Assembly (NCBI GenBank): GCA_030145715.1
Contig: JAIXHQ010000006.1
Span: 1-64,000 of the forward strand
DNA from: Sphingopyxis sp.
GTDB taxonomy: Bacteria; Pseudomonadota; Alphaproteobacteria; Sphingomonadales; Sphingomonadaceae
Direction of reading: 5' to 3'
DNA length: 64,000 nucleotides
The position numbers were made by a program, and so were the translations under genes. The notes under the pieces were generated by a model. It was not told where the DNA came from, searched no databases, and saw only the letters and a list, made by a program, of their open reading frames with translations. Positions 1-24,359 of this stretch are shown in pieces; the stretch's first letter is position 1; each line of letters starts with the position of its first letter.

Positions 1-51
1 CAGAAAAGCCGTTGCCACTGTCATACAGTGCCGTTAAGACCCGCCCGTCGC

Positions 52-127
52 GGGGCCGTAGCTCAGATGGGAGAGCGCTGCAATCGCACTGCAGAGGTCA
101 GGGGTTCGATTCCCCTCGGCTCCACCA
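52..127 (+). tRNA. tRNA-Ala (anticodon CGC), integration target
   Basis: A full cloverleaf can be folded: the acceptor stem GGGGCCG pairs with CGGCTCC, the anticodon stem CTGCA pairs with TGCAG around the loop ATCGCAC (anticodon CGC, alanine), and the T arm is AGGGG-TTCGATT-CCCCT. CCA is encoded. From position 78 to the end the sequence is repeated exactly at 14230-14279, so the 3' half seen here was supplied by the integrated element while the gene stays intact. Confidence 0.97.
78..127 (+). repeat. attL core, 50-bp direct repeat copy 1
   Basis: This stretch is identical over 50 bp to 14230-14279. It covers the anticodon stem, T arm and acceptor 3' strand of tRNA-Ala(CGC), the usual crossover target of tyrosine recombinases. 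Identity stops at both sides (g77 versus c14229, t128 versus g14280). Confidence 0.93.
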
Positions 128-160
128 TTTTTCAATGACTTAGCGACACAGATTTATTTC

Positions 161-179
161 GTATGGAACGCGTATGGAA
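161..179 (+). repeat. Subterminal GTATGGAA repeats, probable integrase arm sites (left)
   Basis: GTATGGAA occurs at 161-168 and 172-179. The longer string GTATGGAACGCGTATG (161-176) recurs exactly at 14118-14133 inside the right end. Paired repeats in the same orientation beside both att cores are what arm-type integrase binding sites look like; the role is inferred. Confidence 0.6.
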
Positions 180-203
180 AACAGGGGCTATCCTTTGCCC
201 CTG
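178..203 (-). terminator. Rho-independent terminator after the leftmost small gene
   Basis: Read on the minus strand, CAGGGGC and GCCCCTG form a 7-bp stem with an 8-nt loop, followed directly by TTTT. It lies 7 nt past the stop codon of the 86-residue gene, so it probably ends that transcript before attL. Confidence 0.65.
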
Positions 204-209
204 CGCGCC

Positions 210-470
210 TTAGACCACGCGGACATTAAAAATGTCTTCCAGCCACACGCTCGCGCGGCTTCTGGCTTCGGCTGAGCGACCGTTGACCGCCAGCTTCATC
301 ATCACCTCCAACGCGCCCTGGTCGGCCGATGCCGCTGCTGCGTCGATCGCGCGGCTCTCGCAGTCTGCGATCGAGGGGAAGGGGAGGACGGTACCGATTG
401 GGCCGCGCGCGGGCGCGCTGGGGGTCGACCCAGTGGTGGGCGACGGGCGGAACTGGATGACATTGCTCAT
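210..470 (-). CDS. Hypothetical protein, 86 aa
   Basis: I do not recognise this protein. It is 86 residues, begins MSNVIQFRP, has a Pro/Ser/Gly-rich first 30 residues and then a probably helical, Ala-rich part that ends NVRVV. The start is set by a strong AAAGGAGAT ribosome-binding site just upstream of ATG at 470; a longer frame upstream has implausible composition and was not used. A terminator hairpin follows the stop. It is the gene nearest attL, a place that often carries cargo. Its ATG overlaps the stop of a possible upstream frame (467-694) as ATGA. Confidence 0.6.
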   Translation of the reverse strand: MSNVIQFRPSPTTGSTPSAPARGPIGTVLPFPSIADCESRAIDAAAASADQGALEVMMKLAVNGRSAEARSRASVWLEDIFNVRVV

Positions 471-694
471 GGTTGATCTCCTTTGTTGATGCCCAAAAAG
501 TCCCGAAATTCCTTGTTGATAGCAACAAAAATGTTGTCGGTTGGGTCGTCCCGCGCAAAGCCGCAGATATCCGTCGAAAGTGTTGGTGATGTTGGCCGGC
601 CGTCGAGCGTCGGTGGTTTCGTTGGTCGGTGGTGGCAGACTATCCAGACGGTCCCCGCAGGAGGCGGGGCCGCCGCGGCTATGGTCGGCGTCAT
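467..694 (-). CDS. Possible small protein, 75 aa, translationally coupled
   Basis: This is a doubtful frame of 75 codons. Its last 20 residues (FVAINKEFRDFLGINKGDQP) have ordinary protein composition, while the first half is Pro/Ala-rich. Its stop overlaps the start of the 86-aa gene as ATGA, and the ribosome-binding site for that gene lies in its final codons, which would allow translational coupling. No clear ribosome-binding site precedes its own ATG at 694. It may be a leader region rather than a gene. Confidence 0.3.
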   Translation of the reverse strand: MTPTIAAAAPPPAGTVWIVCHHRPTKPPTLDGRPTSPTLSTDICGFARDDPTDNIFVAINKEFRDFLGINKGDQP

Positions 695-925
695 CAATGG
701 CGTTCAGCTGGCTGGCGATCACGCGGCGCGCCAGGCTGGGCAGGGGGTGGCGATCGACCCGTGGCAGGGGTGCCGCATCCCGAACCGCACCCCGGCGGGG
801 GCACCCGCGCCGCCTCGCCAAAATCTATTTCAGCGCCCCGCGCTAAATTTTTTTTTGGCGAAATCAGTGGGACATATTGTCTCCATCTATTGCGCACGAA
901 TCCTGACGTGTCGTATTGTCGCCGC
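471..925. other. 455-bp region between divergent small genes of the element
   Basis: Apart from the doubtful 75-codon frame (467-694) I see no gene here. AGCGC-CCC-GCGCT (832-844) is followed by AAA and nine T, which looks like a plus-strand terminator. GACA-TAT-TGTC (871-881) is a short dyad upstream of the gene at 926 and could be an operator. The region probably holds divergent promoters. Confidence 0.4.
832..856 (+). terminator. Terminator-like hairpin with T9 tract
   Basis: A 5-bp stem AGCGC/GCGCT with a 3-nt loop is followed by AAA and a run of nine T. No plus-strand gene ends just before it, so it may insulate the gene at 926 from read-through out of the tRNA. The stem is short. Confidence 0.35.
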
Positions 926-1561
926 ATGACGCAGGAAATATCACAACCTAGGCTCAAGCGGATCGGCCGGGCGTTGCTCCGAGGCGAAGCGTGGGCGAGC
1001 GAAGACGCCGACAGGGCGGGGCTCGCGCTTGACGAGGTTATTGATCGCGCGCGCGCGGCAGTCGCGCCCAAGCCGAAACAGCCGGTAGGTCGCTCCAAAA
1101 GAGATTTACTCGCAATCATAAACGAGCATTACGAACCGCAGCCCTACGGCCCGGTCAAACCGGTTCCTATTAAATCATTGAACCATATTTTCCTGATGGT
1201 CGAGGCGATGAAGGTCTTGCACGCAAAGCCCGGTAAACGCGGAGCCCGACCAAAGAAGCTGACGGACTTCGAGGCATATGAGCGGTTCGTTGTCGCGATC
1301 GGCGAGCCGACAAAACCATTCGGCGACGAAAAGTCGGATATCCCGCTAAACGCCACCCATCTCAAGAATTTGCGTTACCGCATGGCCTGCGATCTCCGGA
1401 TCAGGACAGGAGGAACGGTCACGATCCGCGAGGTGAAGCGATGGCGAAAGCCGCGGCGGTTTGCGGCTTATAGCCGGCTAGTCGCTGGCCTTAAGCCGGA
1501 ATGCGGCGTCGATGAGGTTCACCGTAGTAGGGCGGACCGAGGGCTTCGGCGATCAGCTTGA
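926..1561 (+). CDS. Hypothetical protein of the mobile element, 211 aa
   Basis: I do not recognise this protein. It is 211 residues, basic and probably soluble. It starts MTQEISQPRLKRIGRALLRG and has a Lys/Arg-rich middle (GKRGARPKKL) and a very basic C-terminus (RHSRADRG-like, many Arg). The charge suggests nucleic-acid binding, which is inference only. The ATG at 926 lacks a good ribosome-binding site. Upstream lies a short GACATATTGTC dyad. The secreted-protein genes follow on the same strand. Confidence 0.55.
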   Translation: MTQEISQPRLKRIGRALLRGEAWASEDADRAGLALDEVIDRARAAVAPKPKQPVGRSKRDLLAIINEHYEPQPYGPVKPVPIKSLNHIFLMVEAMKVLHAKPGKRGARPKKLTDFEAYERFVVAIGEPTKPFGDEKSDIPLNATHLKNLRYRMACDLRIRTGGTVTIREVKRWRKPRRFAAYSRLVAGLKPECGVDEVHRSRADRGLRRSA

Positions 1562-1617
1562 GGTGCCGCCCTTGATGTGCGCATAACAAAACAGACTGCC
1601 GAGGGGGAGGGATTGGA

Positions 1618-1878
1618 ATGTTGAGGAAATTTGCAGCTTCTGCTGCATTAGTCGCTTGCATCTTAAGCGGCCCGGCATCTGCGTCAGAATGCAGCGACGC
1701 TCGGGAAAGCTACAATGCCGCGCTCGATGGCATCTCTTATGCGCTCCGTCGATACACCAACTGCCTGAATTCGGCGGACGGGTCTGACGACTGCTCGACG
1801 GAGTTTCGCCGGTTAAAATATGCACAGGACGAGTTCGAAAGCGCGGTAAGCGCAATAAGCTCGTATTGCAGATATTAG
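1618..1878 (+). CDS. Small secreted cysteine-containing protein, 86 aa
   Basis: The first 22 residues form a clear Sec signal peptide (MLRKF, a hydrophobic core, cleavage after ASA). The mature part is about 63 residues with four cysteines, which could form two disulfides in the periplasm, and looks helical (ESYNAALDGISYALRRY). A strong GGGGAGGGATTGG ribosome-binding site precedes ATG at 1618. I do not recognise the family. It is the first of four consecutive exported proteins on this strand. Confidence 0.65.
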   Translation: MLRKFAASAALVACILSGPASASECSDARESYNAALDGISYALRRYTNCLNSADGSDDCSTEFRRLKYAQDEFESAVSAISSYCRY

Positions 1879-1975
1879 GTGATTTGCTTCACGTGCGTCG
1901 CAAGCTGAAAGCAGGTTTTGCCGCTCACGGTGAGGATAGAAAAACCCGGAACCTTATTGCCGCTAAGGGCCACGA

Positions 1976-2410
1976 ATGATCCTATCGTTGCTATTTGCGG
2001 CGGCCTTCGTCGTCCCTGCTGGCCAATCATTCAATTGCACGCCCACAGCGGTGTGGGATGGTGACGGCCCGATCTGGTGCGCCGAGGGGCCGCATGTTCG
2101 CCTGTCGGGCATCGCGGCGCGCGAAATGGATGGGACGTGTCGTGCAGGGCATCCATGCCCTTCTGCGGACGCTATCGCTGCTCGCGATCATCTGGTGGCA
2201 TTGCTGGGCAAGCGCGGCGGTGTCCGGCCGACCGGCCATATTTCAGTGACCGGCCCGACGATGATCTGCCTATCGGCTGGTGGCGCCGGTGGCACGCGCA
2301 CCGCGGCATTCTGCTCATCGGCTCGATCTGGTGATATTTCCTGCGCGATGGTCCGCGATGGTTATGCGGCTCGCTGGGATCGGTACTGGCAGCGCCATCG
2401 CTGCGATTGA
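1976..2410 (+). CDS. Secreted staphylococcal-nuclease-like (thermonuclease family) protein
   Basis: This is a 144-residue protein with an N-terminal signal peptide. It shows the SNase-fold pattern: VWDGDG, then VRLSGIAARE (counterparts of the catalytic Arg and Glu of the VRL-x-GIDAPE motif), a later GTRTAAFC and the usual end ISCAMVRDGYAARWDRYW. The Asp of GIDAPE, a calcium ligand in the staphylococcal enzyme, is Ala here, so activity is uncertain. Several cysteines fit a periplasmic location. A ribosome-binding site (AAGGG) precedes ATG at 1976. The next gene encodes an excalibur-like domain, which in other proteins is fused to SNase domains. Confidence 0.75.
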   Translation: MILSLLFAAAFVVPAGQSFNCTPTAVWDGDGPIWCAEGPHVRLSGIAAREMDGTCRAGHPCPSADAIAARDHLVALLGKRGGVRPTGHISVTGPTMICLSAGGAGGTRTAAFCSSARSGDISCAMVRDGYAARWDRYWQRHRCD

Positions 2411-2463
2411 CCGTCTTCTGATTTGTTAACAGCCCTGTGTCATAGTCATCACGGGGGGATGAA

Positions 2464-2769
2464 ATGCGACATACCGTTATCTGCGCTGCTGCTGTTCTAT
2501 CGCTATCGCCAGCACCGACCAACGCCCACGGCGGAGGCTTGGCCGCCGACGGCTGTCACAACGATCGCAAGAACGGCGGCCGGCATTGTCATCGTGCACC
2601 CGCCCGATCCGCTCCATCGGCGGACCGTCCCCAACGACTGTCGGGTGGCAACGCCTATTTCGCAAATTGCACTGCCGCGCGCGCTGCTGGTGCGGCGCCG
2701 GTCCGCCGTGGCGATGCCGGATATGCCCGGCACCTCGATCGCGACGGGGATGGTGTCGGATGCGAGTGA
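2464..2769 (+). CDS. Secreted excalibur-domain calcium-binding protein, 101 aa
   Basis: After a signal peptide ending near TNA, the protein has an HGGGLAADGCH...GGRHCH segment and then the excalibur pattern YFANCTAARAAGAAPVRRGD ending in LDRDGDGVGCE. The DxDxDG loop plus paired Cys is the extracellular calcium-binding excalibur motif. A strong GGGGGG ribosome-binding site lies upstream of ATG at 2464. Its end overlaps the lipoprotein gene by 10 nt, so the two are co-translated. It probably works outside the cytoplasm, perhaps with the SNase-like neighbour. Confidence 0.8.
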   Translation: MRHTVICAAAVLSLSPAPTNAHGGGLAADGCHNDRKNGGRHCHRAPARSAPSADRPQRLSGGNAYFANCTAARAAGAAPVRRGDAGYARHLDRDGDGVGCE

Positions 2770-3116
2770 TTGTCGCCGCTATGGCGCTGGCGTTGCTCGC
2801 CGGATGCGGCCCTTCCACGGATGATTTGCAAGAGCAGATTGACGAAGCCGAAAGCCAGATAAGCGAGCTGACCGATGAACTGGCCGCGGAGACGGCAAAG
2901 ATCGAAGATGCCACTGAAAAGCTGGGAGACGCTCAACAGCAACTCGCCACTCTGCAAAGCGCCATCTCGAACCTCGACGGCGAAAGCTCGCGTTTCGAGC
3001 ATGACAGCTGGCGATCAGTCGTGCCGGACGTGCAGAGCGGCACGGACGACGTGGACGCGAGCGCGGCCGAGCTAAGCAGTCGGCTCGACGATATCGGCAC
3101 CGCTCTTGAGCAATGA
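2760..3116 (+). CDS. Small coiled-coil lipoprotein, 118 aa
   Basis: The protein begins MRVIVAAMALALLAGC, a signal peptide with lipobox LAGC and lipidated Cys16. Residues 20-80 are a long heptad-rich coiled coil (EQIDEAESQISELTDELAAE...). The end is acidic and helical. It overlaps the excalibur gene by 10 nt. Outer-membrane spanin subunits are small lipoproteins too, but no partner holin or inner-membrane spanin is seen. A structural or exclusion role at the envelope is possible. Confidence 0.7.
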   Translation: MRVIVAAMALALLAGCGPSTDDLQEQIDEAESQISELTDELAAETAKIEDATEKLGDAQQQLATLQSAISNLDGESSRFEHDSWRSVVPDVQSGTDDVDASAAELSSRLDDIGTALEQ

Positions 3117-3129
3117 TCGGCGATGACCG

Positions 3130-6100
3130 CTACAGGATATATTTGCTCGCCACGTCATCTTTGCCCTTCTTCTTGGGCGGTCCGGTAATTTCGCCCGTCT
3201 CGGGATCGGTGACGCTGCCCTTCTCGCCAATCAGCTTCTCAGCGAAAGCGTCAGCGGTCGTCGTCGATGTCACCGCCATTGTAGCGAGCCCGGCCGCGCC
3301 GCTGATGTACGAGCCGCCGGGGATGAACTGCAGCGCCATCCCGGCACCGGGGCCGATGCCGAGGCGATAGATCGCCTTGGCTCGGTTATACTCCGCGGTG
3401 TTGGTCTTCTCGCTGTTGCGCACCGAGGTGGTGCCGATGGCATCGACCTGCTGCACGATGTTGGACAGCGCGGGGCCTGAAAGATTTGACGCGGCGGACC
3501 CGCTGTATTTGTAGCCGGCATAAGCCTGAATGATCGGATCGAGCGGTGTCGCGAAGGTCCGGCCCATCGCAGTCGTGATCAAATAGCCAGCCAGTTCGTC
3601 CTTCTCGTCGAGCTCCTTCCACCTCTCCTGGTCGAACAAGAACATGCGAACGGTCGACACCAGTAGCTGGCCGGCCACCAGCGCCGCGGCGCTCGCGAGC
3701 AACCCGCCCGCGACTTGCGGCGCGATAGCCGCTGCGGCTTTGGCATTTGCCGTTGCCTTACCGTCGCCGACATCCAAAGCGATGTCGCGGCGCCGCTCAT
3801 ATTGCCGGCCAACCCGGATCGCTGAGCCCTTGATGATGTTCCGATAGAACTCATAATTGAATGACATGATGCCGTAGGCCAGGCGGCCGAAAGCGCTGCT
3901 TGCCGCCTCCGGTCGCGACATGACAGTGGGGGACTGGATCGACCCTTTCACGAAGCGGTCAATGGCTGTGATCCAGTCGCGGGTGAACGGGTCGCCTTCG
4001 GCGAAGTCGGCCGGCGTGGGCAGGCTGTCGAAAGCGCGCACCCGTTTAGCGAACGCGTCGGGATCAGACACGCCATACTCTTCAAGACGAGCGATGGCGT
4101 CGGCCCGGCGAATATGGGCTTTCGAACCCGGAGCCGCGCTGGCGCCATCGACAACCCAGCCGCTCATGCAATCGAGGAAGGCGTGCGCGGCGCCGACCAT
4201 CTGCCCCTGCTGTGCCCGCGTAAGCGCGACCAAGCCGGTGTTGTAGAACATGCGGGTCGCAGCATCCGACAAGAAGGTGTCATTGGCGTAGGAGCCGCCA
4301 TAGCGCTCAGTGAGCACGTTGTGGCCGCCGCGGTCGCTGACGATACCGGCGAAGCGTGCGAGGTCCGCTCGCGCCCTCGATCCGTCGGTTTTGACGATGG
4401 ACGCCAGCAAATCGCCTGTCGCCTTGAAGGCAAATTTCGCATTGCCAGCGTGAAGCCCGGCGGTGACGCTCTCGGACATCGACGACCAAACGGCGCGCGG
4501 AAGCAAAGAAATCGTGCCCCATATAACGTGGATCGCTTCGAAGGCCCAATTGACGCCGGGCGGCAATTTGCTGACCGACCGGCCGGTCACGACATCGAAG
4601 ATGGCGCGCACCTGATCCTGGCCGACGGCGGACACCCCCTCTTTGCCCATCTGCGCAAACAGCGCATCGATCTTCTTGTTGTCGGCGCCGAAGCGCTCGG
4701 CATATTCGATCCGCCGTGCGACCTTGCCGCTGTAGAGCATCATGACGTGCACCGGATCGCGTACCATATATTTCTCAAGCAGCTTGTCCGCCTCGGGCGG
4801 CAACTCGCGGCCTTTGAGGAATTTGCCGTCGGGACCACGGCTGTCGACTTCGTGCGGGTTTGAGCCCTGAATCTTCAACAACCAATCGGCAGCGGCCTGC
4901 TTCGACCATGCGGCTTGAACCGCATCGTAAAGGTCGCCGAACGCCTCGCTCAATTGTTCGTCGAGCGCCGCAACCTCTCCCTGCATCGTGCCGGCATCTT
5001 CGCCCGCTTTTTCGGCCGCAGCAATTGCGCGGTTCAGGCTGGTGATCTGCTTCCTGATCTTCGCAAATGCCTTGTAGGGGTCGACGACGCCATCATGGCC
5101 GTTCCGGGACAGGTCGCGCGCTGCGGCCAGAAAGGTTTGCAGAGCTTCGTCGTCCGCGAGAACAGCATCGCTATCGCCCCACTGCCGCTCGAAGGCGATC
5201 TTGTATGCCTTTGCCGCTTGGGCCAGAAAGCCCGCCTCGTCGCTGCCGATGATTGCGTCATCGTAGAGGCGCTGCAAATAACCGTTGCGCGCATAGCCGA
5301 CATCGATCCCGGCGCGCTGCATGTCGTAGAATATCCTGTCGGAAAGCTTGCGGAGGCCAGCCGCTAGGGTCTGCATTGGCTTGCTACCGGCCGCCGTCTC
5401 CGCGCTGATCAACAGGTCGCGAAGATGATCGCTATCCTCGATCGACAGCTCGCGCGTTCGCAATTTGTAGCCGAGCGCCTCATTATAATTCCCGACCAAT
5501 AGGCTGATGACATTCTGGTATTGGTTCATGCGAAGCTCGGTCGCCCGCAAATAGTCGCTGCCGGGCGATTTATCTCCAGCGGTGTGCGTCAGCATGTTGT
5601 GCAGTTTGAGCACCGACGGGGCGTCATATCGGCGGCCGATCATCTTCAACCGGGCCGTCATGCCATATTTGAAGAACGACAAGGCGTCGTGCATGTTGCG
5701 AAGGATTGAGGCATCGGCGCTGGCGGGCCTATCGCGCAGCCGCTTGCGGCGCGCCTCGCTGCGCGACCAGATTGCATCCCATTCCCGACCGATCGCCGAT
5801 CGGAAGATGTTGCGCTCGCGCGGGGCGACCGTCTCGGGTTGTTCGAACGGGTTGAGGCTCGCCTTGTTGGCCGGGTCCGGCATAGCCGCAGCGCCCGCGC
5901 CGAGCGTCTCTTGCGTGGCGATGTGCGCGAAGATGTTGTCGAACGCGTCAAAAATCCGCAGGCGCTCGGTCCCCTTGGGAAACGTCATCGCGAAGCGCTC
6001 ATCGGCCTCGCTCAAATATGCTGCATCGCCCTTGCCGATGAACTCCGTCGACATGCCGGCGCTTTCGGCCTTGTAGGAAACATAGGCTTCGAACGCCCGG

Positions 6101-9100
6101 GCAAGCATTTCGGTCGGGCTCGTCCAATATTCCTGAGTGCCTGCCTTGTTGCCGAAGGCCTTGGACAGCTTGGCGAAATCGGACGTGAGCCCGCGCGGCT
6201 TCGCGTTGCCGGCCGTGATATTGTCGATCTGCCGCTGCAATTCGGCGCGCACCTTGTCACTGCTGGTCTTGGCAATCTTGGCTTCGAGATCCATTACGCG
6301 CGTAGCCAGCCCTGCCTTGTCGAAAAACATCGTGTTGAGAAGATGGATGAACCCATCGCGGATATCGCGGTTCGGTATCCCGTCAGCATCGGCGAGATTT
6401 TCGCCCATCTGGCGGATGGCGCCACTCAGCCCGCGGCCGGTGCTGTCGTTCTCCGTCGACCCGAGATTTGCGAGCAGATGGTAATCGAGCGCGTGACCCC
6501 ATTCGTGCGCGAAGCTGTTGCTGCGGCGGGGAAGGCCGATCATGTTTGTGCCTGGCTGGAACCAGCCTAGCGCCCGCGCCTGCTTTTCAATGGTCAGCCC
6601 GAGCTTCCCGCCGAGCGACATACCGCGCGCGGGAATGCCGAGGACCGCGGCCATGCCCTGCACGTTTTGCAGCATATCGAGCATCTGGTCGATCGCAAAG
6701 CGGGCTTGCACGCCGGGCTGCACATCAACAGTGATACCGAAAGCCTCCTTCACGGCCCGTTTCAGCAAAAAGATTTGGCGCGGGGCGGGGAGCAAGACAA
6801 ACTTGTCAGGGTCCATGTCGAGCGAGGTGCGCACAATGCCGGCGAAGAATGACGGGCGATCGGTGAAGCTGCGGCTCAAGAATTCGGGATCGTAGCCCGC
6901 GCGGTCTTCAAGCGGATACGACGCGCGGTCTATGTCGGGCGTGTCGATATCGGGGATATCGTCATCGTTGGCCGCTTGAGCCTCGGGCTGATCGCTGCGC
7001 ACCCCATCTGGCGCCGATTCCTCCGCGCCAGCGTCGGCGGCGGTCGCGAGAAGGTCCGCTTCATGCTGATGCTCGATCGCCGCGGCGTACAGATCGGCCG
7101 GTGTCGGCGGCGCTGCATTGCCGAACAGGTCAGCGTCGGCACGCTGCTCACTCGCCAACTCGGCATAGCTGCGCAGGATACCAGCCACCTTGTTCCGGCC
7201 GGCCGCGCGCCGTAGGTTGCCGTCATAGAACGATCGAATGATCTTCTCGACGAGCGGATCGATCTGGTTGAAGGCGTCGCGCTGCGCGAACACGTCGCTG
7301 ATCTTCTCGCCCTGCGCGCGGGCATCGGCAATCAGCCCGATCGCTTCGAGCACCTTGTCGGTCAGGTCATATTGCTTGTCGACGGTGCCATCCTGCATCG
7401 CCTCGGTCATCTTGCCCCAATCGGCTGCGACCTCGGACAGCGCGCCGGTCAGCGTGCGCGTCTGGTTGTCGGTGTTCTCCATCGCCTTCGACAGAAACCG
7501 CTTGGCCGCGGGCGAGCCATTGCCGAACGCGCGCGCCAGCATGGCGTTCTCGATCCGCGCGACGCCGGCGGTCGACAGGTTGCCCTTGTCGTCCATGAAG
7601 GTCGAACGCTGGCCGTCGGGCACGGCGTCGATGAACTTGCGCACGAAGTCGCCGTTGCGCTGCGAAGTGAGCGCGCCGCCCATGTAGGAGGTGAAGACTT
7701 CGGGCGTCAGAATGTCGCTCGCGTCCTGCGCCGCGCGCTCCGGCGCCGATAGCTCCTGCTTGGTGTCGCTGTTCGATCCGGTGATGAAATTGCGCAGCGT
7801 TGCGTCGTCCATCTCCGTTACACGGCGGCGGATCAGGATCGGTCGCTCGATGCCCGTCGTATCGAAGCCCTGGCTTTCGATATAATCGCGATACGCCTGC
7901 GCCGCTTCGGGGCGCTCGTCGAACACGCGATTGATTGCGAGCACACGGCCATTGCCGCTCTCGATCGTGCCATCCGGCCCGATGATCGGTGCGCCGCGGT
8001 CTGTGTAATTGTCATCGCCTAGCTGCTCGGGATCGAACTTGCCGACGATGGCCATGATCTGCGCCTCGCTCGCGGCGCGGTCGCGATCCCGGTTCTGCTT
8101 CGAGCCCTCGGCCTGCGTGATGTCGTCGGCGTTCACCAGCTCCATCCGCACATCGATCTTGCCGCCGGTCGGGATCGTGACCCGGCGCGTTCCCTCGCGC
8201 GCTGCGATCGGCGCTTTGGCCGTGACGGTCGCCTTAGCGGGCTCGGGCTGCTCGACGACAGGCGCGGGGGTGACAGCTTTTGTCACCTCTGCCGGTGCAG
8301 GCTCTTTAATGGGCGGCTGTTCGACCGCTGCGGGAGGCGCAACAGGGGCGACGGGCTTCGGTGCTGCCTTCGGCGCCTCTGGCGTCGTGGTGGCCGCTGG
8401 CGCGGCTGTCTCGCCCACCTTGGCGACGAACGAACGCGATCCGTCCTTATCGGTGGCGGTGACGGTGCGCCCAGCGGGTTCGACGCGATATGGCGCTTCC
8501 GTCGGCGCGGGCGGTGCCGCTTCGACGCGCGGGCGGAAAGCGTCGACCGCAATCGCATTCGCCAGCGGCGAGAAGGCTTGTGCATCCGCGCGCTCGGCAA
8601 GGACGTCACGCACCTTGGCGACACCGGCGCCCGCGGCATTGGGGATTTCTGTCATGCCGGTGCGAAGCGCAGGCCCAAGAATGCCGCCAGTGATTGCTCC
8701 GCGCCCCGCCTGCGACAAACCTTCATCCAGATCGAAACCGCGATCGGTTCCTAGTGAACCGCCCGTATATTCGGCAAAGCTTTGTACGCCCTCTGTCGCA
8801 GCCTCGGACACTGCGCTCCCGCCGAGCCGTACCATCAGGTTGCCGCCCAAGTCGCCGCCGAGATATTTCGTGCCGAGCTTTTCAGCCAGCGTGCTGACCG
8901 CTGCCGCTGGCAATGCCTTGGCAACATCAGTTAGCGTTGCCGTGCCTGTGCCATTGTTCTCCGCGCGGTTCTGGCCAATGTTGCCAGCATTGCTCGTTAG
9001 ATATGATGCGATGCTGAGAGGGTTTGTCATGCCGAGCATGTCGACAGAGGCACCCGCGCTCTGCTCGGCGATGAAACTGCCCAGCTTCCCCAGGCTGAAA

Positions 9101-9912
9101 TTCGAACCAAGATCATCGAGCGTCGTTTCGCCCGCGATCGGTCGGCCAATATACTGGTCGACTTCATCGGCGCGCGCTGTGAGCTTGTCGCCGAAACCTT
9201 CGTCGATCGCGTTCATGCCAGCGGCGATGACGCGCGCACCGCCCGAACCGATCCGCATGGCCGACCGCTTACCCATCAGGCCGACACGATCAAGCAGCCC
9301 CCCATTCTGCAGCGGCGTGTTGTCGACGCGTTTCACGGTCATCGGGTCGAACTCCGGCGTCGCGTAAGGCGTAACTTCTCCGCCAAAGATCGAGGCGACA
9401 CCGGGGTCCATCGCAACTGGGGCAGGCTGTATGCGCGGTGGGCGTGGCTTGGAGGCCGGAGCCTTTGTCTGGGCACCGAGCGCGCGCAGCGGCGCCAACA
9501 GCTCAGGCCGCACCGGCAGCTTGCCAGTCGACTGCGGACGCGGAGCCGGAGCGCGCGGCGCGGCCGGTGTGTCGGCATAAGCGCTGAGCGGCGGGCGTGG
9601 CTTCGCGGTTGCGACCGGCTTGGGCTTCGGGGCCGTGCCGCCAGCGTCGGGATATTGCCGCAGCACTTGCGCGCGCACGTCCTCGTCACTCGCGCCAGCC
9701 GGGCCGTCGATCTGGTAGGTTTTGCCGTTGGGGGCTTTGATCTGGTAGGTGGCAGTCTCACGCGGCCCGGCCGGTTTCGGTCCGGTCGAATGACCGCGAA
9801 GCTGTGCCGGCGTGACGCCCTCTGATGCCACATAGGTGTCAATTTCGGCCTCGGGCGCACCGAGACGGATCATTTTAGCGACGTTGCGTTTTACGCGTGC
9901 GTAGTCAGTCAT
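3130..9912 (-). CDS. Giant polyvalent protein, 2,260 aa (ParB-like, zincin-like, phage internal-protein-like)
   Basis: This gene takes up 48% of the element. In order: a short N-terminal domain (1-45) and a TYQIKAPNGKTYQIDGP repeat-like unit (about 55-90); a Pro/Ala linker; a Gly/Ala-rich hydrophobic region (about 230-440); a second Pro-rich linker; a DdrB/ParB-like domain (about 590-760) with ESGNGR at 651-656; a zincin-like domain (about 1060-1400) with HEWGH at 1136-1140 and a downstream SPTEMLARAFEAYVS that could give the third ligand; long helical regions; and a hydrophobic segment near 2055-2085. The layout fits the polyvalent proteins of phages and conjugative elements, which are thought to enter the recipient with the DNA. 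GGAGG precedes ATG at 9912. No virion genes accompany it. Confidence 0.8.
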   Translation of the reverse strand: MTDYARVKRNVAKMIRLGAPEAEIDTYVASEGVTPAQLRGHSTGPKPAGPRETATYQIKAPNGKTYQIDGPAGASDEDVRAQVLRQYPDAGGTAPKPKPVATAKPRPPLSAYADTPAAPRAPAPRPQSTGKLPVRPELLAPLRALGAQTKAPASKPRPPRIQPAPVAMDPGVASIFGGEVTPYATPEFDPMTVKRVDNTPLQNGGLLDRVGLMGKRSAMRIGSGGARVIAAGMNAIDEGFGDKLTARADEVDQYIGRPIAGETTLDDLGSNFSLGKLGSFIAEQSAGASVDMLGMTNPLSIASYLTSNAGNIGQNRAENNGTGTATLTDVAKALPAAAVSTLAEKLGTKYLGGDLGGNLMVRLGGSAVSEAATEGVQSFAEYTGGSLGTDRGFDLDEGLSQAGRGAITGGILGPALRTGMTEIPNAAGAGVAKVRDVLAERADAQAFSPLANAIAVDAFRPRVEAAPPAPTEAPYRVEPAGRTVTATDKDGSRSFVAKVGETAAPAATTTPEAPKAAPKPVAPVAPPAAVEQPPIKEPAPAEVTKAVTPAPVVEQPEPAKATVTAKAPIAAREGTRRVTIPTGGKIDVRMELVNADDITQAEGSKQNRDRDRAASEAQIMAIVGKFDPEQLGDDNYTDRGAPIIGPDGTIESGNGRVLAINRVFDERPEAAQAYRDYIESQGFDTTGIERPILIRRRVTEMDDATLRNFITGSNSDTKQELSAPERAAQDASDILTPEVFTSYMGGALTSQRNGDFVRKFIDAVPDGQRSTFMDDKGNLSTAGVARIENAMLARAFGNGSPAAKRFLSKAMENTDNQTRTLTGALSEVAADWGKMTEAMQDGTVDKQYDLTDKVLEAIGLIADARAQGEKISDVFAQRDAFNQIDPLVEKIIRSFYDGNLRRAAGRNKVAGILRSYAELASEQRADADLFGNAAPPTPADLYAAAIEHQHEADLLATAADAGAEESAPDGVRSDQPEAQAANDDDIPDIDTPDIDRASYPLEDRAGYDPEFLSRSFTDRPSFFAGIVRTSLDMDPDKFVLLPAPRQIFLLKRAVKEAFGITVDVQPGVQARFAIDQMLDMLQNVQGMAAVLGIPARGMSLGGKLGLTIEKQARALGWFQPGTNMIGLPRRSNSFAHEWGHALDYHLLANLGSTENDSTGRGLSGAIRQMGENLADADGIPNRDIRDGFIHLLNTMFFDKAGLATRVMDLEAKIAKTSSDKVRAELQRQIDNITAGNAKPRGLTSDFAKLSKAFGNKAGTQEYWTSPTEMLARAFEAYVSYKAESAGMSTEFIGKGDAAYLSEADERFAMTFPKGTERLRIFDAFDNIFAHIATQETLGAGAAAMPDPANKASLNPFEQPETVAPRERNIFRSAIGREWDAIWSRSEARRKRLRDRPASADASILRNMHDALSFFKYGMTARLKMIGRRYDAPSVLKLHNMLTHTAGDKSPGSDYLRATELRMNQYQNVISLLVGNYNEALGYKLRTRELSIEDSDHLRDLLISAETAAGSKPMQTLAAGLRKLSDRIFYDMQRAGIDVGYARNGYLQRLYDDAIIGSDEAGFLAQAAKAYKIAFERQWGDSDAVLADDEALQTFLAAARDLSRNGHDGVVDPYKAFAKIRKQITSLNRAIAAAEKAGEDAGTMQGEVAALDEQLSEAFGDLYDAVQAAWSKQAAADWLLKIQGSNPHEVDSRGPDGKFLKGRELPPEADKLLEKYMVRDPVHVMMLYSGKVARRIEYAERFGADNKKIDALFAQMGKEGVSAVGQDQVRAIFDVVTGRSVSKLPPGVNWAFEAIHVIWGTISLLPRAVWSSMSESVTAGLHAGNAKFAFKATGDLLASIVKTDGSRARADLARFAGIVSDRGGHNVLTERYGGSYANDTFLSDAATRMFYNTGLVALTRAQQGQMVGAAHAFLDCMSGWVVDGASAAPGSKAHIRRADAIARLEEYGVSDPDAFAKRVRAFDSLPTPADFAEGDPFTRDWITAIDRFVKGSIQSPTVMSRPEAASSAFGRLAYGIMSFNYEFYRNIIKGSAIRVGRQYERRRDIALDVGDGKATANAKAAAAIAPQVAGGLLASAAALVAGQLLVSTVRMFLFDQERWKELDEKDELAGYLITTAMGRTFATPLDPIIQAYAGYKYSGSAASNLSGPALSNIVQQVDAIGTTSVRNSEKTNTAEYNRAKAIYRLGIGPGAGMALQFIPGGSYISGAAGLATMAVTSTTTADAFAEKLIGEKGSVTDPETGEITGPPKKKGKDDVASKYIL

Positions 9913-10011
9913 GGCTGTAGCCTCCGGAAAAGGTAGGGGTGCGAGGGGACGCCGGCCGATTGACGGCGGCGCCCCAGGACCGAGACCGGGAGGCTACAGA
10001 GTGCCCCCGGG

Positions 10012-10206
10012 CTAGATCAGTTCGAGAAGTCCGAACCAGCGGCGCTCTCGGCGAACGCGCGCGACCAGTTGGAGAAGATTTTCGCCGGGCAGGGGAGTGG
10101 CGCGCCAAGGCGTCGCGGCGTCCCACTGCTGCAGGGGCGCGCGAGAAACCGGGGTCCGCCGAGCACGAGAGCGGCCGGAATTGTGAGTGATTTGCACAGT
10201 CTGCAT
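10012..10206 (-). CDS. Hypothetical basic small protein, 64 aa
   Basis: This is a small Arg-rich protein (MQTVQITHNSGRSRARRTPV...) that ends in RRERRWFGLLELI. An AGGGAC ribosome-binding site lies 9 nt before ATG at 10206, which supports translation. It precedes the giant gene on the same strand with a 99-nt gap. A hairpin (10235-10269) lies in its upstream region. I do not recognise a family. Confidence 0.45.
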   Translation of the reverse strand: MQTVQITHNSGRSRARRTPVSRAPLQQWDAATPWRATPLPGENLLQLVARVRRERRWFGLLELI

Positions 10207-10234
10207 TTTCAGTGTCCCTTTGGTTGGTTAGTAT

Positions 10235-10269
10235 TAGAGAGAGGGAGGGGCCTGACCCCCCTCTCTCTA
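10235..10269. repeat. 11-bp GA/CT-rich hairpin
   Basis: TAGAGAGAGGG (10235-10245) pairs perfectly with CCCTCTCTCTA (10259-10269) around a C/G-rich loop. No T tract follows on either strand, so it is not a typical terminator. It lies 29 nt upstream of the 64-aa gene, between that gene and the TTCCCG repeats. Confidence 0.55.
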
Positions 10270-10300
10270 TAACGACTACCGGAAACCGGAATGTCATATA

Positions 10301-10314
10301 TTTCAATGACTTAG
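10301..10314 (+). repeat. 14-bp repeat shared with the left end
   Basis: TTTCAATGACTTAG here is identical to positions 130-143, directly after attL. It borders the TTCCCG repeat cluster. Confidence 0.5.
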
Positions 10315-10321
10315 GCCATAT

Positions 10322-10442
10322 GGTTCCCGATACCGATGGAAACGAAAAACCGTGGCAAATCAGTCCTTTAGCCAATTGGTTCCCGACCCATTCCCGACGT
10401 TCCCGCGTTCCCAAATCGATAGACGGGAACGTGGGAACGGTA
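10322..10442. other. Candidate replication origin: TTCCCG iteron-like cluster
   Basis: GTTCCCGA near 10323 and 10379, ATTCCCGA at 10390, then GTTCCCGCGTTCCC (10399-10412) facing GGGAACGTGGGAAC (10425-10438) make a dense set of direct and inverted TTCCCG units. The last pair is a 13-of-14 dyad with a 12-nt spacer. The cluster lies just past the end of the RepA-like helicase gene. Directly repeated short units beside a replication gene are typical of iteron origins. The function is inferred. Confidence 0.55.
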
Positions 10443-10487
10443 TCATAATACCCGTCTGTGATTTCGAGGCAAGCGGTCCGCATCATC

Positions 10488-12098
10488 TCAGCCGAGCTTG
10501 ATCTGGCGGACGACCAATGTCTGGTCCTCCGACATAACGACGCGGCCGGCGTCGATAAGCCGCATGATCCCGGTGTCGATTTTGGCTCGCGAGTACGGAA
10601 CGGGCCTTATATCCGACATAGCGTAGACGCTGCGCGTGCCCGTTCGGCAAACGACGCGGCCATCGGCATTGTGCTTCTCGATGCGGCTGACGATCCAGTC
10701 GAGCACGTCAGCTTCGACAACGGCCCCGGGGGCGGCCTGGGGGGTCTCTGCCATCGCCAAGCCGCCGGGGGCTTGATTGAAGCGTCGGCCGGTGCACAGC
10801 GCTGCCCATTCGTAATTGCCGGGCGGGATGTTCCGCTTCACGATACCGATTTCGACCTGATTGTTCGGTCGGCCGATCATGCCGATCACCATCCGCGGCC
10901 GGTCGACATGTACGCCGGACCCACGGATGGCATGGCGAAAACTGCCCATCCCGCCGTTGAAGTTCTTGGTCAGGTGGTGGACGACCACGACAGCGCAGCC
11001 CTTGGCCTGCGCAAACGAGTTGAGGACATCGTAGACTGCGCCAGCGTCGCCCGCCTCGTTCTCTTCCTTCACGAATTTCGTGAGCGGATCGATTATCAGC
11101 AGATCCATCTCGCCGATCCGCGCAAGGCGCGCGAGGCAGTCCTCCAAGGTTTTACCGTCGCCGGCGAATATGGTGAAGCCGGCGGGCCCCGCGCTGCCGA
11201 AGCCGAGAGCCGTCTTGATCTGCTCGATGTCGCCAGCGGCGTCTTCGCCCGTAACATAAGCGCAGATGCCGTTCGTTCGGCAAATTTGCTCGCCGAGGAA
11301 GTCAGCGCCTTCGCCGACTGCGCCGCCGACCTTCGCCATCAGCTCGACCATTGCCGTGGACTTCCCGACGCCGCCCGATCCCGCCAACAGCGTGATAACC
11401 CCGCGGCGGATCAGGCCCGGCACCAGCCAATCCACCTGCTCATCAGCTTGGGTTCGGATCGCCAGCGAATGACACGCGAAAAGTTGGATATCCCGGCCGC
11501 TCTGTTCCCATGCGGAACATATGTCGGTGAGCCGATCCGGCTGGATGCAGACCCGCGCGGCCCAGCTGTCAATATCCTCGTCGGTCGAGGGCAACCGATC
11601 GGCGAAGGGCGCGGGAAGCTCGGCGCTCGATGCGATCGCTTCTTTGGCCGCTGCGAAAAGCTCCGACAATGTCTCAACCTTGAGAGACATCCATTCGTCG
11701 CTCGCACTGATTACCAAGTCGCGCAGCTTGCCCACCGGCGGGATCGGGCAATCGAACCACGCGATCATCCGCGCCCGCTCAATATCGCTCTTGTGCACGA
11801 CGAGCGCCAGGTTCTGGCGAAGCGCCCCATGGTGTTTTGCCGGCAGCAGACTGACGGCGCCTACCGCCGCGAAGTGTCGGTAGGCCACTTCGGTGCATTC
11901 GCGAACGGCAGACTTGGCCTCGGCGATGAACTTTGCGTCGGCTGGCTCATCCTCGCCGTCAAAGGCGTTGAGCTCGAACCCTTCGCGCCAGCTCTCGGAA
12001 TGATCAAAGCTGCTCACGTCATACGCTTCGAGCCCGCCGAAATCATTCCGAACCCAAAGCCCAAACGGCAGCACGGCGTATTCATCGACTTTCGCCAC
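10488..12098 (-). CDS. RepA-like AAA_25-type replicative helicase
   Basis: This is a 536-residue RecA-fold ATPase resembling plasmid and phage RepA helicases. Walker A GSGGVGKST is at residues 240-248, Walker B is LLIIDPL, and a VVVVHHLTK strand follows, as in the DnaB/RepA class. The first 230 residues are unassigned. The last 75 (DVLDWIVSRIEKH... onward) look like a winged-helix domain. The start is GTG at 12098 with GGAG 8 nt upstream. It follows the HTH gene by 3 nt, so the two form a replication and regulation cassette, with iteron-like repeats just beyond its stop. Confidence 0.8.
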   Translation of the reverse strand: MAKVDEYAVLPFGLWVRNDFGGLEAYDVSSFDHSESWREGFELNAFDGEDEPADAKFIAEAKSAVRECTEVAYRHFAAVGAVSLLPAKHHGALRQNLALVVHKSDIERARMIAWFDCPIPPVGKLRDLVISASDEWMSLKVETLSELFAAAKEAIASSAELPAPFADRLPSTDEDIDSWAARVCIQPDRLTDICSAWEQSGRDIQLFACHSLAIRTQADEQVDWLVPGLIRRGVITLLAGSGGVGKSTAMVELMAKVGGAVGEGADFLGEQICRTNGICAYVTGEDAAGDIEQIKTALGFGSAGPAGFTIFAGDGKTLEDCLARLARIGEMDLLIIDPLTKFVKEENEAGDAGAVYDVLNSFAQAKGCAVVVVHHLTKNFNGGMGSFRHAIRGSGVHVDRPRMVIGMIGRPNNQVEIGIVKRNIPPGNYEWAALCTGRRFNQAPGGLAMAETPQAAPGAVVEADVLDWIVSRIEKHNADGRVVCRTGTRSVYAMSDIRPVPYSRAKIDTGIMRLIDAGRVVMSEDQTLVVRQIKLG

Positions 12099-12101
12099 CG
12101 C

Positions 12102-12308
12102 TCAGGCTCCAGCCGCGGTCTTGAGTTCAGTCAGGCTGGCAACCCACGCCTCCTGGTCGGCGCGGGTGATGAGGGTGCGGCGGGCTGCTTTGACTGCGCG
12201 CAGCTTGCCAGCTTTTATCTCGCGATAGAGGGTCGCTCGACTGATACCCAGGCGATGCGCCGCGGCAGTTACGGTGTCGACGAGCGGTTCACCGTTCTCG
12301 GTGGCCAT
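12102..12308 (-). CDS. Excisionase / AlpA-type HTH protein, 68 aa
   Basis: This small DNA-binding protein has the HTH_17 pattern VTAAAHRLGISRATLYREIKAG-KLRAVKAARRTLI, followed by an EAWVASL helix. Such proteins act as excisionases or as activators of integrase and replication genes in satellites and islands. GGAG lies 8 nt before ATG at 12308. A TATAGT-like -10 and an 8-bp inverted repeat (12364-12407) are upstream. Confidence 0.82.
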   Translation of the reverse strand: MATENGEPLVDTVTAAAHRLGISRATLYREIKAGKLRAVKAARRTLITRADQEAWVASLTELKTAAGA

Positions 12309-12363
12309 GAGATGTCTCCAGATGTCTGCGTGATTGCAGTCGTCTCAGGAGTAATCACCGAGT

Positions 12364-12407
12364 TTTTACTATAAAAGGCGGATTTCGTGACGTAGATTTT
12401 AGTAAAA
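12364..12407. promoter_or_regulatory. AT-rich inverted repeat upstream of the HTH gene, candidate operator and promoter
   Basis: TTTTACTA (12364-12371) faces TAGTAAAA (12400-12407). On the minus strand TATAGT, a good -10 match, sits inside the left arm region about 60 nt before the ATG of the HTH gene. Autoregulation by that HTH protein is plausible but inferred. Confidence 0.4.
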
Positions 12408-12564
12408 TTGAGAATTGCTTGGATGGCGGCTATCGAAATCCTAGGTTTCTCGCGGGATACAGATAGAATTCAAGCGCAAAAATCATGCTCCTGCTCCCGT
12501 TTCCTGCAAATGCCGGCAGCTGAACACGATTGCGCGTCTCCAGATGACGCGTTAACCAGCGCTC

Positions 12565-12843
12565 ATGGATTGGACACTGCTCATAGGATATGTCGTCGTG
12601 ATGGCTCTGCTTTTGCTGTTGAGCTACATCGACCAGCACTACAGTGGTATCATCGCGCGCAAAGATCGCGAGATCCAATCGTTGCACGATCAGCTGGCTC
12701 GGCTGCGCACCATCACCGATGCGATCGAAGACGAAGAATGGGCGCTCGATCTGCCTGACGCGCGTATGGATCGACCGGACCCGTACACGATCCGCTACCC
12801 GCTCGGCGATGCGCCGTGGCCGAAGAAAGATGGCATTGAGTAA
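12565..12843 (+). CDS. Small membrane protein with coiled coil, 92 aa
   Basis: One N-terminal membrane helix (MDWTLLIGYVVVMALLLLLS) is followed by a charged helix (ARKDREIQSLHDQLARLR) and an acidic tail rich in Asp and Pro. It is probably an inner-membrane protein with its C-terminus in the cytoplasm. The layout resembles Rz-type spanins or small membrane regulators, but nothing specific identifies it. It lies on the opposite strand to the replication and integrase genes. No strong ribosome-binding site is seen. Confidence 0.55.
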   Translation: MDWTLLIGYVVVMALLLLLSYIDQHYSGIIARKDREIQSLHDQLARLRTITDAIEDEEWALDLPDARMDRPDPYTIRYPLGDAPWPKKDGIE

Positions 12844-12934
12844 GGCCGCCGCGTAGCCGGCCGCCAGCGCTATCAGGCTCGCGTGAGAGGGCCGGAAGGC
12901 GCCCGCCGCGCACCGCGGGGCGTGTCTCCACTTC

Positions 12935-14095
12935 TTAAAGCGCCAATGCCTCCAGCGCCTTCACCGCCGCACCGCGGGCAAGGTGGCCATAATGCTGCTC
13001 AATCATCTCGGCACTGGTGCCCGATATTTGCGCGATCGTAAGGAGCGGGAGCCCGGCCGTCACCAAATCGGTGATCGTGCTGTGGCGCAGGGTGTAGGCG
13101 GTTGCTTTCACCGGAAGCTCAGCGGCAGCGACAGCAGCGGCAATGGGCAGTTTCCAGCTATCCTTGTCCCATGCTTTCCCGTTGGCGCGCATGAACAGCG
13201 GCGCCGTGGGCAGCTTGTCCTTCGATTGCTCGACCAGGAGCTTCGCGGCGGCGGCCGGGATCACAATACGGCGATCCTCGCCCGCCTTGTCCTTGCCAAT
13301 CGTGAGCTCAGACGTGCGCTTGTCGAAGTCGCCAGCCGTGAGCGCAGCCATTGCGCCGGGACGCAAGGGCAACAGGCACAGCGACCGCACAAATGGCGCG
13401 GCCTCCTCGTCCATATGCTCCAGAAGCGAGCGCCGCTGATCCTTGTCGAGATAGAGCGTCCGCCGCTTGCCGGCATTGCTGGCAGGCACCAGAGCCTCTT
13501 GCCACGCCGCCTCGGAGTTCGGTGCACCGGGTGAGAGCACCTTGGCCAGCGCCGCGCGCAACACGGCCATGTCGCGGTTGACGGTTGCGGGCGAACGCTC
13601 ACGGGTTCGCTTTTCGCCTTCCTTGTTCCGGCTCACCAGCGATGGCGTTGCCTCTAACCGCGAGCGCCACTCTTTGACGTGGCGGCGGCGCAACTTGTCG
13701 AGCTTCACCTTGGCGATGGGATCTTCATAAACATATCGTTTAAAGCGGCTCTCCGCTTCCGGCCGGGTCTTGCCGAATTCCTCGCAAGCGTCCGCGACGG
13801 TTTCGATCTTGCGACGAACCTCTCCGCCCGCCTCCACCATCTCGGCAAGCTTCTCGGCCTCCTTCTTGGCGGCCATGAACATGTCGTTCTTTGCCAGCGT
13901 GCCGAAGTCGCCGAGCGACTTGACCCGATACTTGTCGGCGTCGGCGTCGAAGATGCGGGCAATCCATGTGCCAGACCCGCCGCGCTTCGAGGGGCGATAG
14001 CCGAGAAAGCACCCAGCACGCAGACGTTGCCAATGCGGCTCGCGCGTCACCTTCAGCTCATCACGCTTGCCGACCCTGCTCAAATCCAATGCCAT
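12935..14095 (-). CDS. int: Tyrosine recombinase (phage-type integrase)
   Basis: This 386-residue integrase has an N-terminal DNA-binding half (residues 1-180) and a C-terminal catalytic domain. LRPGAMAALTAGDF carries the first catalytic Arg, AYTLRHSTITDLV the R-H pair, and ISGTSAEMIEQHYGH the nucleophile, Tyr369. It catalyses integration and excision at tRNA-Ala. ATG at 14095 is preferred because MALDLSRVGKRDELKV is a natural start with AAGGGA upstream; a longer frame runs into the arm-site repeats. It lies next to attR. Confidence 0.92.
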   Translation of the reverse strand: MALDLSRVGKRDELKVTREPHWQRLRAGCFLGYRPSKRGGSGTWIARIFDADADKYRVKSLGDFGTLAKNDMFMAAKKEAEKLAEMVEAGGEVRRKIETVADACEEFGKTRPEAESRFKRYVYEDPIAKVKLDKLRRRHVKEWRSRLEATPSLVSRNKEGEKRTRERSPATVNRDMAVLRAALAKVLSPGAPNSEAAWQEALVPASNAGKRRTLYLDKDQRRSLLEHMDEEAAPFVRSLCLLPLRPGAMAALTAGDFDKRTSELTIGKDKAGEDRRIVIPAAAAKLLVEQSKDKLPTAPLFMRANGKAWDKDSWKLPIAAAVAAAELPVKATAYTLRHSTITDLVTAGLPLLTIAQISGTSAEMIEQHYGHLARGAAVKALEALAL

Positions 14096-14107
14096 CACGC
14101 GTCCCTT

Positions 14108-14133
14108 GTATGGAATAGTATGGAACGCGTATG
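14108..14133 (+). repeat. Subterminal GTATGGAA repeats, probable integrase arm sites (right)
   Basis: GTATGGAA occurs at 14108-14115 and 14118-14125. GTATGGAACGCGTATG (14118-14133) matches 161-176 exactly. The repeats overlap the region just upstream of the integrase start, so integrase could also repress its own gene. Confidence 0.6.
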
Positions 14134-14137
14134 TAAT

Positions 14138-14210
14138 ACATCGTGAGACGCTAAGCAACAGATGGAGATGGAAACCAAGCGTTTCCAAGGCTCTGAGCGT
14201 CTCACGATGT
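14138..14210. repeat. Perfect 15-bp inverted repeat with nested palindrome
   Basis: ACATCGTGAGACGCT (14138-14152) is the exact reverse complement of AGCGTCTCACGATGT (14196-14210). Inside lies GGAAAC-caagc-GTTTCC (14170-14186). The structure sits between the integrase start and the attR core and has no T tract. It could be an integrase, excisionase or host-factor site, or a regulatory RNA hairpin. Confidence 0.7.
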
Positions 14211-14229
14211 CGGTGGTTGTGTCAGTTCC

Positions 14230-14279
14230 CTGCAATCGCACTGCAGAGGTCAGGGGTTCGATTCCCCTCGGCTCCACCA
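14230..14279 (+). repeat. attR core, 50-bp direct repeat copy 2 (tRNA-Ala 3' fragment)
   Basis: This is an exact copy of 78-127. It lacks the tRNA 5' half, so it is not a functional tRNA gene; it is the displaced original 3' end of tRNA-Ala(CGC). Ordinary chromosome resumes at 14280. Confidence 0.93.
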
Positions 14280-22883: not shown

Positions 22884-22911
22884 GCATGGTCAATCCTGTT
22901 GGCCCGTCGGG

Positions 22912-24252: not shown

Positions 24253-24274
24253 GGGATCGTGCCTCAAAGAATGT

Positions 24275-24346
24275 CGTCATTGCGAGCGGAGAGCAGCAAT
24301 CCAGAGCGCATGACGCCACTCTCTATTGCCGCTCCCTGCAATGACG
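24275..24346. repeat. REP-like palindromic repeat between accD and folC
   Basis: CGTCATTGC (24275-24283) faces GCAATGACG (24338-24346), with a GAGCGGAGAGCAGCAATCC arm inside. The sequence resembles widespread intergenic palindromes of alphaproteobacteria. It fills the gap between two genes of one operon and may affect read-through or mRNA ends. Confidence 0.55.
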
Positions 24347-24359
24347 ATTCAGAACAGGA

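Follow-up and report, generated by a model that had tools for sequence, protein, structure and literature searches.

A phage satellite-like island of Sphingopyxis sp. with a giant polyvalent protein related to phage ejection proteins

Described satellites and the island at tRNA-Ala

Satellites of the phage-inducible chromosomal island (PICI), P4-like and phage-inducible chromosomal minimalist island (PICMI) families combine an integrase and attachment (att) site with an AlpA-type regulator and a replication gene, may carry defence cargo, and are devoid of a virion gene set. The window analysed here, a stretch of 64,000 nucleotides from Sphingopyxis sp. (assembly GCA_030145715.1, contig JAIXHQ010000006.1), holds near its left end an island which shares these features, with defence cargo in one of two complete copies and a satellite-like size (14.2 and 21.2 kb). 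It differs from these families in that the gene of one giant ejection-type protein takes up 6,783 of its 14,152 bp (48%), and in that no packaging-redirecting or capsid-sizing gene was recognised in it (TerS, cos/pac or sizing genes, such genes being diverse).

Satellites are described as redirecting packaging and as reshaping or excluding capsids (PMC11389934), and some carry capsid and terminase genes of their own and make their own capsids (PMC10690885). The capsid-forming PICIs and the Streptomyces satellites Mulch and Flayer resemble the island in possessing some particle genes; as characterised in that source, however, theirs are capsid, portal and terminase genes, whereas only an internal ejection-type protein was found in the island (PMC10690885). 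As for described phage proteins, the T7 ejectosome comprises gp14, gp15 and gp16, of which gp16 is proposed to cross the inner membrane and bind DNA (PMC8954989), while P1 DdrB is reported to be packaged in processed form and DdrB-ParB to be listed as phage-specific (PMC5512222). No description of a phage satellite with a polyvalent, ejection, internal virion or pilot protein was found among the matches listed for open-access PubMed Central (PMC) full text.

We consider the island a phage satellite-like element, dependent on a short-tailed temperate phage like the prophage of genome G068 and viral locus L005, with a probability of roughly 55%. In its best reading, the satellite uses the head of a helper podovirus and supplies its own gp16-like, possibly anti-restriction, ejection protein.

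The giant protein and its phage relatives

The giant is encoded on the minus strand at 3130-9912, and both this open reading frame (ORF) and the domain scans bear out the 2,260-residue polyvalent protein that had been predicted to fill almost half of the element. By Pfam, motif, alignment and structure comparison it consists of a DdrB-ParB domain (residues 583-697; PF18763, 1.6e-30), a HEWGH metallopeptidase motif (1136-1140), an LPD1 domain (1257-1334; PF18796, 1.6e-15) and a predicted gp16-like ejection domain (about 1395-2010). The presence of DdrB-ParB, a zincin-like motif and an LPD domain in one polypeptide is a likeness to P1 DdrB and the phage-type polyvalent proteins as described in PMC5512222; unlike P1 DdrB, the giant is encoded on a virion-less island and not among late phage genes (PMC5512222). 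In tblastn, its residues 606-931 matched phage P1 at 30.6% identity. The HEW-x-H motif is present in the window giant and in all 49 aligned rows, an invariance biased by the fact that the loci were partly found via NSFAHEW.

In structure models, the helical domain at 1395-2010 could be aligned over 249-282 residues with four ejectosome/core chains from three phages, and the best structural alignments of the C-terminal domain were with the ejectosome/core proteins of T7 (a chain which we take to be gp16 from its length), PhiM1 and E1004. The modelled domain would accordingly be counted among gp16-C folds, a statement which relies on VIA-align 2 re-examination of Foldseek candidates together with viral models. 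Neither giant model had a Foldseek match in the PDB at E <= 0.001, and no phage protein appeared up to E = 1 when PDB sequences were searched with a profile; among viral structure models there were 68 matches at E <= 0.001, several of the best 50 of the 68 being named internal virion or core proteins. The modelled helical domain is what the giant would have in common with T7 gp16 and the PhiM1 ejectosome protein as these are described (PMC8954989, PMC11440229). It differs from T7 gp16 by the DdrB-ParB, metallopeptidase and LPD1 parts in front and by its much greater length (2,260 versus 1,318 residues), and from both the T7 and PhiM1 chains in that there is no sequence-level PDB match and no transglycosylase domain by Pfam.

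The relatives of the giant are found with virion genes. In Microcystis phage Mae-Yong1326-1 a homolog ends a row of such genes, and although a single-sequence query of viral contigs returned no relative, a profile search returned 77 loci. These were compared with 14 virion-operon proteins, several of unknown function (eight from Mae-Yong1326-1, three from L005 and three from the G068 prophage). Every one of the 47 loci that extend 4 kb or more beyond the giant on its upstream side has a homolog of at least one of the 14, as against one of the 30 loci with less than 4 kb; the 47 include two near-duplicate pairs, and some of the queries matched by L005 and L021 come from these loci themselves or from a copy. 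With the five named Mae-Yong1326-1 proteins only, the count is 44 of 47 (DNA stabilisation 44, tail tubular 23, major capsid 9), while L055, L069 and L077 match only virion-operon proteins of unknown function.

The island giants are 30-45% identical over the C-terminal half to the giants of Mae-Yong1326-1, L005 and G068/L021, which adjoin virion genes whereas the island giants do not. The closest is that of L005 (45% over the C-terminus), in which the domains come in the same order and DdrB-ParB and LPD1 occupy corresponding positions. It is preceded by genes for proteins of 261 aa, without a PHROG match, and 495 aa, weakly matching a virion structural protein PHROG; by place and size these two may be gp14-like and gp15-like, and their place and rough sizes are those of P22-type gp7 and gp20. 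Giant relatives in both L005 and G068 follow small virion-operon genes, and no gp14- or gp15-like gene was found in the islands. G068, of another genus of the same family, contains a prophage with homologs of the large terminase subunit (TerL), portal, major capsid, tail tubular and DNA-stabilisation proteins along with a giant. Phages with giant homologs are probably short-tailed, to judge from their genes for tail tubular and DNA-stabilisation proteins and from the ejection-type fold. The region G068:C1 2990000-3045000 (L095-L097) looks like a temperate podovirus-type prophage beside tRNA-Ala(GGC); this tRNA was dismissed as its att site, as no tRNA fragment of at least 14 bp recurs in the 55 kb, a stretch in which the att sites of the prophage were not found.

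In a tree of 64 giants made by a quick method, for which 18 of 82 rows had been dropped because they were truncated, weak or near-duplicate, the giants of both complete islands group with that of the partial locus L003 in one clade with a support of 100, with L005 beside it and then L021, flagged as a long branch. Judged from these sequence relationships, the giant descends from a phage gene.

Integration, further copies and gene content

The island is inserted at an intact tRNA-Ala(CGC) (52-127, plus strand; ARAGORN), the 3' 50 bp of which form the left att core (78-127, plus). An exact second copy, 100% identical, lies at the right end (14230-14279, plus) with a start-to-start spacing of 14,152 bp. 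The contig begins only 51 bp left of the tRNA (window 1-51), the left host flank being missing from the assembly, and for this reason the left flank used is that of G021, which belongs to the same genus. Five same-genus sites chosen among sequence matches were inspected: in all five the left flank is joined to an intact tRNA-Ala and the island sequence is absent, and in four of the five the right flank is reached within some 190 bp of the tRNA, the fifth (G204) having about 1.2 kb of unrelated DNA in between. The repeat scan, the tRNA call and these empty sites together establish the exact 50-bp att duplication in tRNA-Ala that had been proposed.

Inside the cores, GTATGGAA occurs as a pair on the left (at 161 and 172, within 160-183, plus) and twice on the right (at 14108 and 14118), where the variant GTATGTAA follows at 14129 (right sites 14108-14140, plus). 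All four copies of GTATGGAA in the window belong to the island, the other 49.7 kb having none, and the second complete copy likewise has two GTATGGAA sites close to each of its ends, together with the GTATGTAA variant (C213 16001-25999 was outside the search). From their sequence these repeats look like integrase arm sites, which the integrase would bind. The original prediction had also mentioned iteron-like repeats, and this element of it has to be withdrawn: repeat scans of the island gave no array, and the conspicuous repeats are the GTATGGAA arm-type sites, which may have been their source.

Copies outside the window, which the prediction had called for, do exist. Genome contigs scanned with the giant yielded two further loci. 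L002, on contig C213 of G021, is a second complete island (10704-31918, 21.2 kb) in the same tRNA, flanked by the identical 50-bp core (10704-10753 and 31869-31918), and is identical to the window island at 95% for the integrase, 40% for RepA and 82% for the giant. The two have in common an integrase, an AlpA-like helix-turn-helix (HTH) gene, a RepA-like ATPase, a small ORF and the giant, and they differ in cargo, which in L002 comprises a type IIG restriction-methylation enzyme, a PDC-S42 protein and a serine recombinase with an HNH repeat; the enzyme and the PDC-S42 protein lie as defence cargo at 21456-25559. L003 is a 10.5-kb contig which starts inside the giant and holds its last 1,157 residues (84% identical), other cargo and one gene region like the Excalibur protein of the window; the contig ends inside the giant and no integrase was seen on it, and L003 is presumably an island. 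Among 80 genomes of the genus, the giant and RepA are both present in the same two, and among 149 sampled genomes of the family the giant is present in two, the source genome and that with the G068 prophage. Integrase and RepA profiles gave no satellite copy in viral contigs. A second integrase of G021 (C169, 61% identical) was set aside as an island copy, since it belongs to an element near tRNA-Glu without a giant; at this place (L086 14222-17324) it stands with another integrase, perhaps in a related element.

Purifying selection acts on the island giants. Between the two complete islands the dN/dS ratio of the giant is 0.13, with every 300-codon block at 0.07-0.20, and for the C-terminal half, with L003 added, all three pairs range from 0.07 to 0.10; the ratios, from a Nei-Gojobori script, are rough on account of synonymous divergence near 1. 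These low values and the long open frame speak against decay. The leader of the giant gene (9915-9999, minus) folds, by prediction, into a stem which pairs the GGAGG of the ribosome-binding site (RBS) with CTGTAGCCTCC (arms 9915-9925 and 9989-9999; z -2.59, one of 200 shuffles being equally stable). The second copy retains this 11-bp stem, one of its pairs being G-U there, and the comparison of these two sequences suggests regulated translation of the giant.

On the minus strand, reading from the right end, the order of genes is tyrosine integrase, HTH_17/excisionase-like gene, AAA_25 RepA-like ATPase and giant, and the family scans recovered each of the integrase, HTH and RepA-like genes named in the original prediction. 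The integrase (12935-14095, 386 aa from a likely start at MALDLS, with a longer TTG-start frame reaching 14188) matched Phage_integrase at 1.4e-9 and a PHROG integrase at 1.1e-32, and gives the element its own means of integration at a discrete att site. The HTH_17 protein (12102-12308, 68 aa), presumably AlpA-like, matched HTH_17 at 1.8e-10 and the excisionase family excise at 3.2e-9, and has a homolog in the second copy. The RepA-like ATPase (10488-12098, 536 aa; AAA_25, 8e-25) is a putative replication helicase, and by sequence these two proteins would provide the regulator and the replication module of a satellite.

Neither virion nor relaxase nor type IV secretion system (T4SS) families were detected by Pfam, NCBIfam and PHROG scans, which covered the main ORFs of the islands, a few small ORFs of the second copy being outside the scan. 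The 14 virion-operon queries, capsid and terminase included, had no tblastn match in the window, L002, L003, L085 or L090. The predicted absence of virion and transfer genes is consistent with both results, and no capsid or terminase remnant, looked for with the same 14 proteins, was found in L002, the only complete relative at this site. Matches between island ORFs and phage loci were limited to the giant and its antisense frames, the tRNA, the ATPase domain of RepA and a short C-terminal part of the integrase, besides one isolated match of 31 residues. No convincing cos/pac-like sequence shared with the phage loci emerged from a comparison of noncoding DNA; two short matches, of 18 bp to L097 and of 21 bp to L038, were discarded as probably due to chance.

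The remaining genes are small. A conserved 64-aa ORF between repA and the giant (10012-10206, minus) has a counterpart of 62 aa in L002 (dN/dS 0.26), and a conserved 86-aa protein (210-470, minus) has a homolog at L002 26472-26723 (dN/dS 0.34); neither has a Pfam match. A 193-aa ORF at 9905-10486 is probably spurious, as conservation there follows the frame of the 64-aa ORF. Just upstream of the latter, at about 10234-10270, GAGAGAGGGG forms a predicted hairpin with CCCCTCCCTCTCTC (z -2.77); L002 has a comparable hairpin in this position, which is unremarkable by shuffling (z -1.19). On the plus strand, a 211-aa variable-region ORF (926-1561), weakly similar to the second copy (37% over 100 aa), is followed by a variable cargo region of four ORFs (1618-3116): a small ORF (1618-1878), a PHROG 18798 protein (1976-2410; 1.1e-38) of a phage family of unknown function, an Excalibur-domain protein (2464-2769) with a homologous region in L003, and a lipoprotein-like coiled-coil ORF (2760-3116).

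Spread of the island and its possible meaning

If the island is a satellite, AlpA and the integrase would excise it, RepA would replicate it during helper infection, and its DNA would be packaged in the head of the helper, from which capsid, terminase, tail and other ejection proteins would also come. The satellite giant would be a late product, its translation perhaps gated by the leader stem that sequesters the RBS, and would be loaded instead of, or beside, the giant of the helper. On infection it would cross the inner membrane together with the DNA, and its DdrB-ParB part, perhaps freed by the HEWGH metallopeptidase, could shield the incoming satellite DNA from restriction. The precedents of T7 gp16 and packaged P1 DdrB imply that an island giant loaded by a helper would accompany, and could protect, island DNA. 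The prediction of a satellite with its own entry protein is upheld as regards a discrete element of two genomes with satellite-type genes and a podovirus-ejection-type protein; packaging by a helper is something we infer. The G068-type prophage is a candidate for the helper type. A helper marker (the L005 homolog of the Mae-Yong1326-1 protein annotated as packaged DNA stabilization protein) had no homolog in the three locus-bearing genomes, this being one marker and G000 being 87.8% complete. The locus-bearing genomes hold one giant each, and in G021 there is none besides that of the island.

The giant might alternatively act against helpers, its gp16-like protein replacing that of the helper and so spoiling particles or blocking superinfection in a defence role. 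The other defence cargo of the second copy (the type IIG restriction-modification enzyme and the PDC-S42 protein) is in line with this, and the absence of the neighbouring ejection-cassette genes from the islands would suit a dominant-negative role; however, DdrB-ParB, metallopeptidase motif and LPD1 are all present, all 300-codon blocks are constrained, and a decoy would hardly need so long a protein, which leads us to regard such interference as unlikely. Descent of the giant from a phage gene, and the existence of such a prophage type in the family, would also fit a remnant of a G068-type podovirus prophage after loss of its virion genes. This origin seems quite unlikely in view of two complete islands with common core, att and arm-type sites but different cargo, the lack of detected virion remnants in both, an integrase whose similarity to G068-type phages is confined to a short C-terminal part, and a giant frame that is open and under purifying selection.

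Retention of integrase, att core and arm-type sites in both complete copies, together with their differing cargo, likewise makes it quite improbable that the island is a stable, no longer mobile one whose giant now serves the host cell, although its occurrence in only 2 of 80 genus genomes and the failure to detect a helper in carrier genomes (one marker) are what such an island would show. Movement by conjugation, as a mobilizable integrative element passing its polyvalent protein through a T4SS, is very improbable: polyvalent proteins are reported from conjugative elements too (PMC5512222), and ATPases similar to RepA are mostly on predicted mobilizable plasmids (151 of 169 records), some adjoining an AlpA gene, but the scanned ORFs include no relaxase or T4SS family and the relatives of the giant adjoin virion-operon genes.

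More tentatively than the satellite reading itself, the island could represent a class of satellites that hijacks entry and not packaging, by means of its own gp16-like protein fused to anti-restriction domains and injected from helper-built particles. If this is true, the long separate lineage of island giants would be an adaptation to satellite DNA and to the defences of the next host, and entry into the next cell along with survival of restriction can be the limiting step of a satellite. It would also offer a natural system in which one part of an ejectosome comes from another genome than the rest, making partner specificity testable. Overall, a virion-less element with a giant ejection-related protein suggests a parasite of viruses that controls its own entry.

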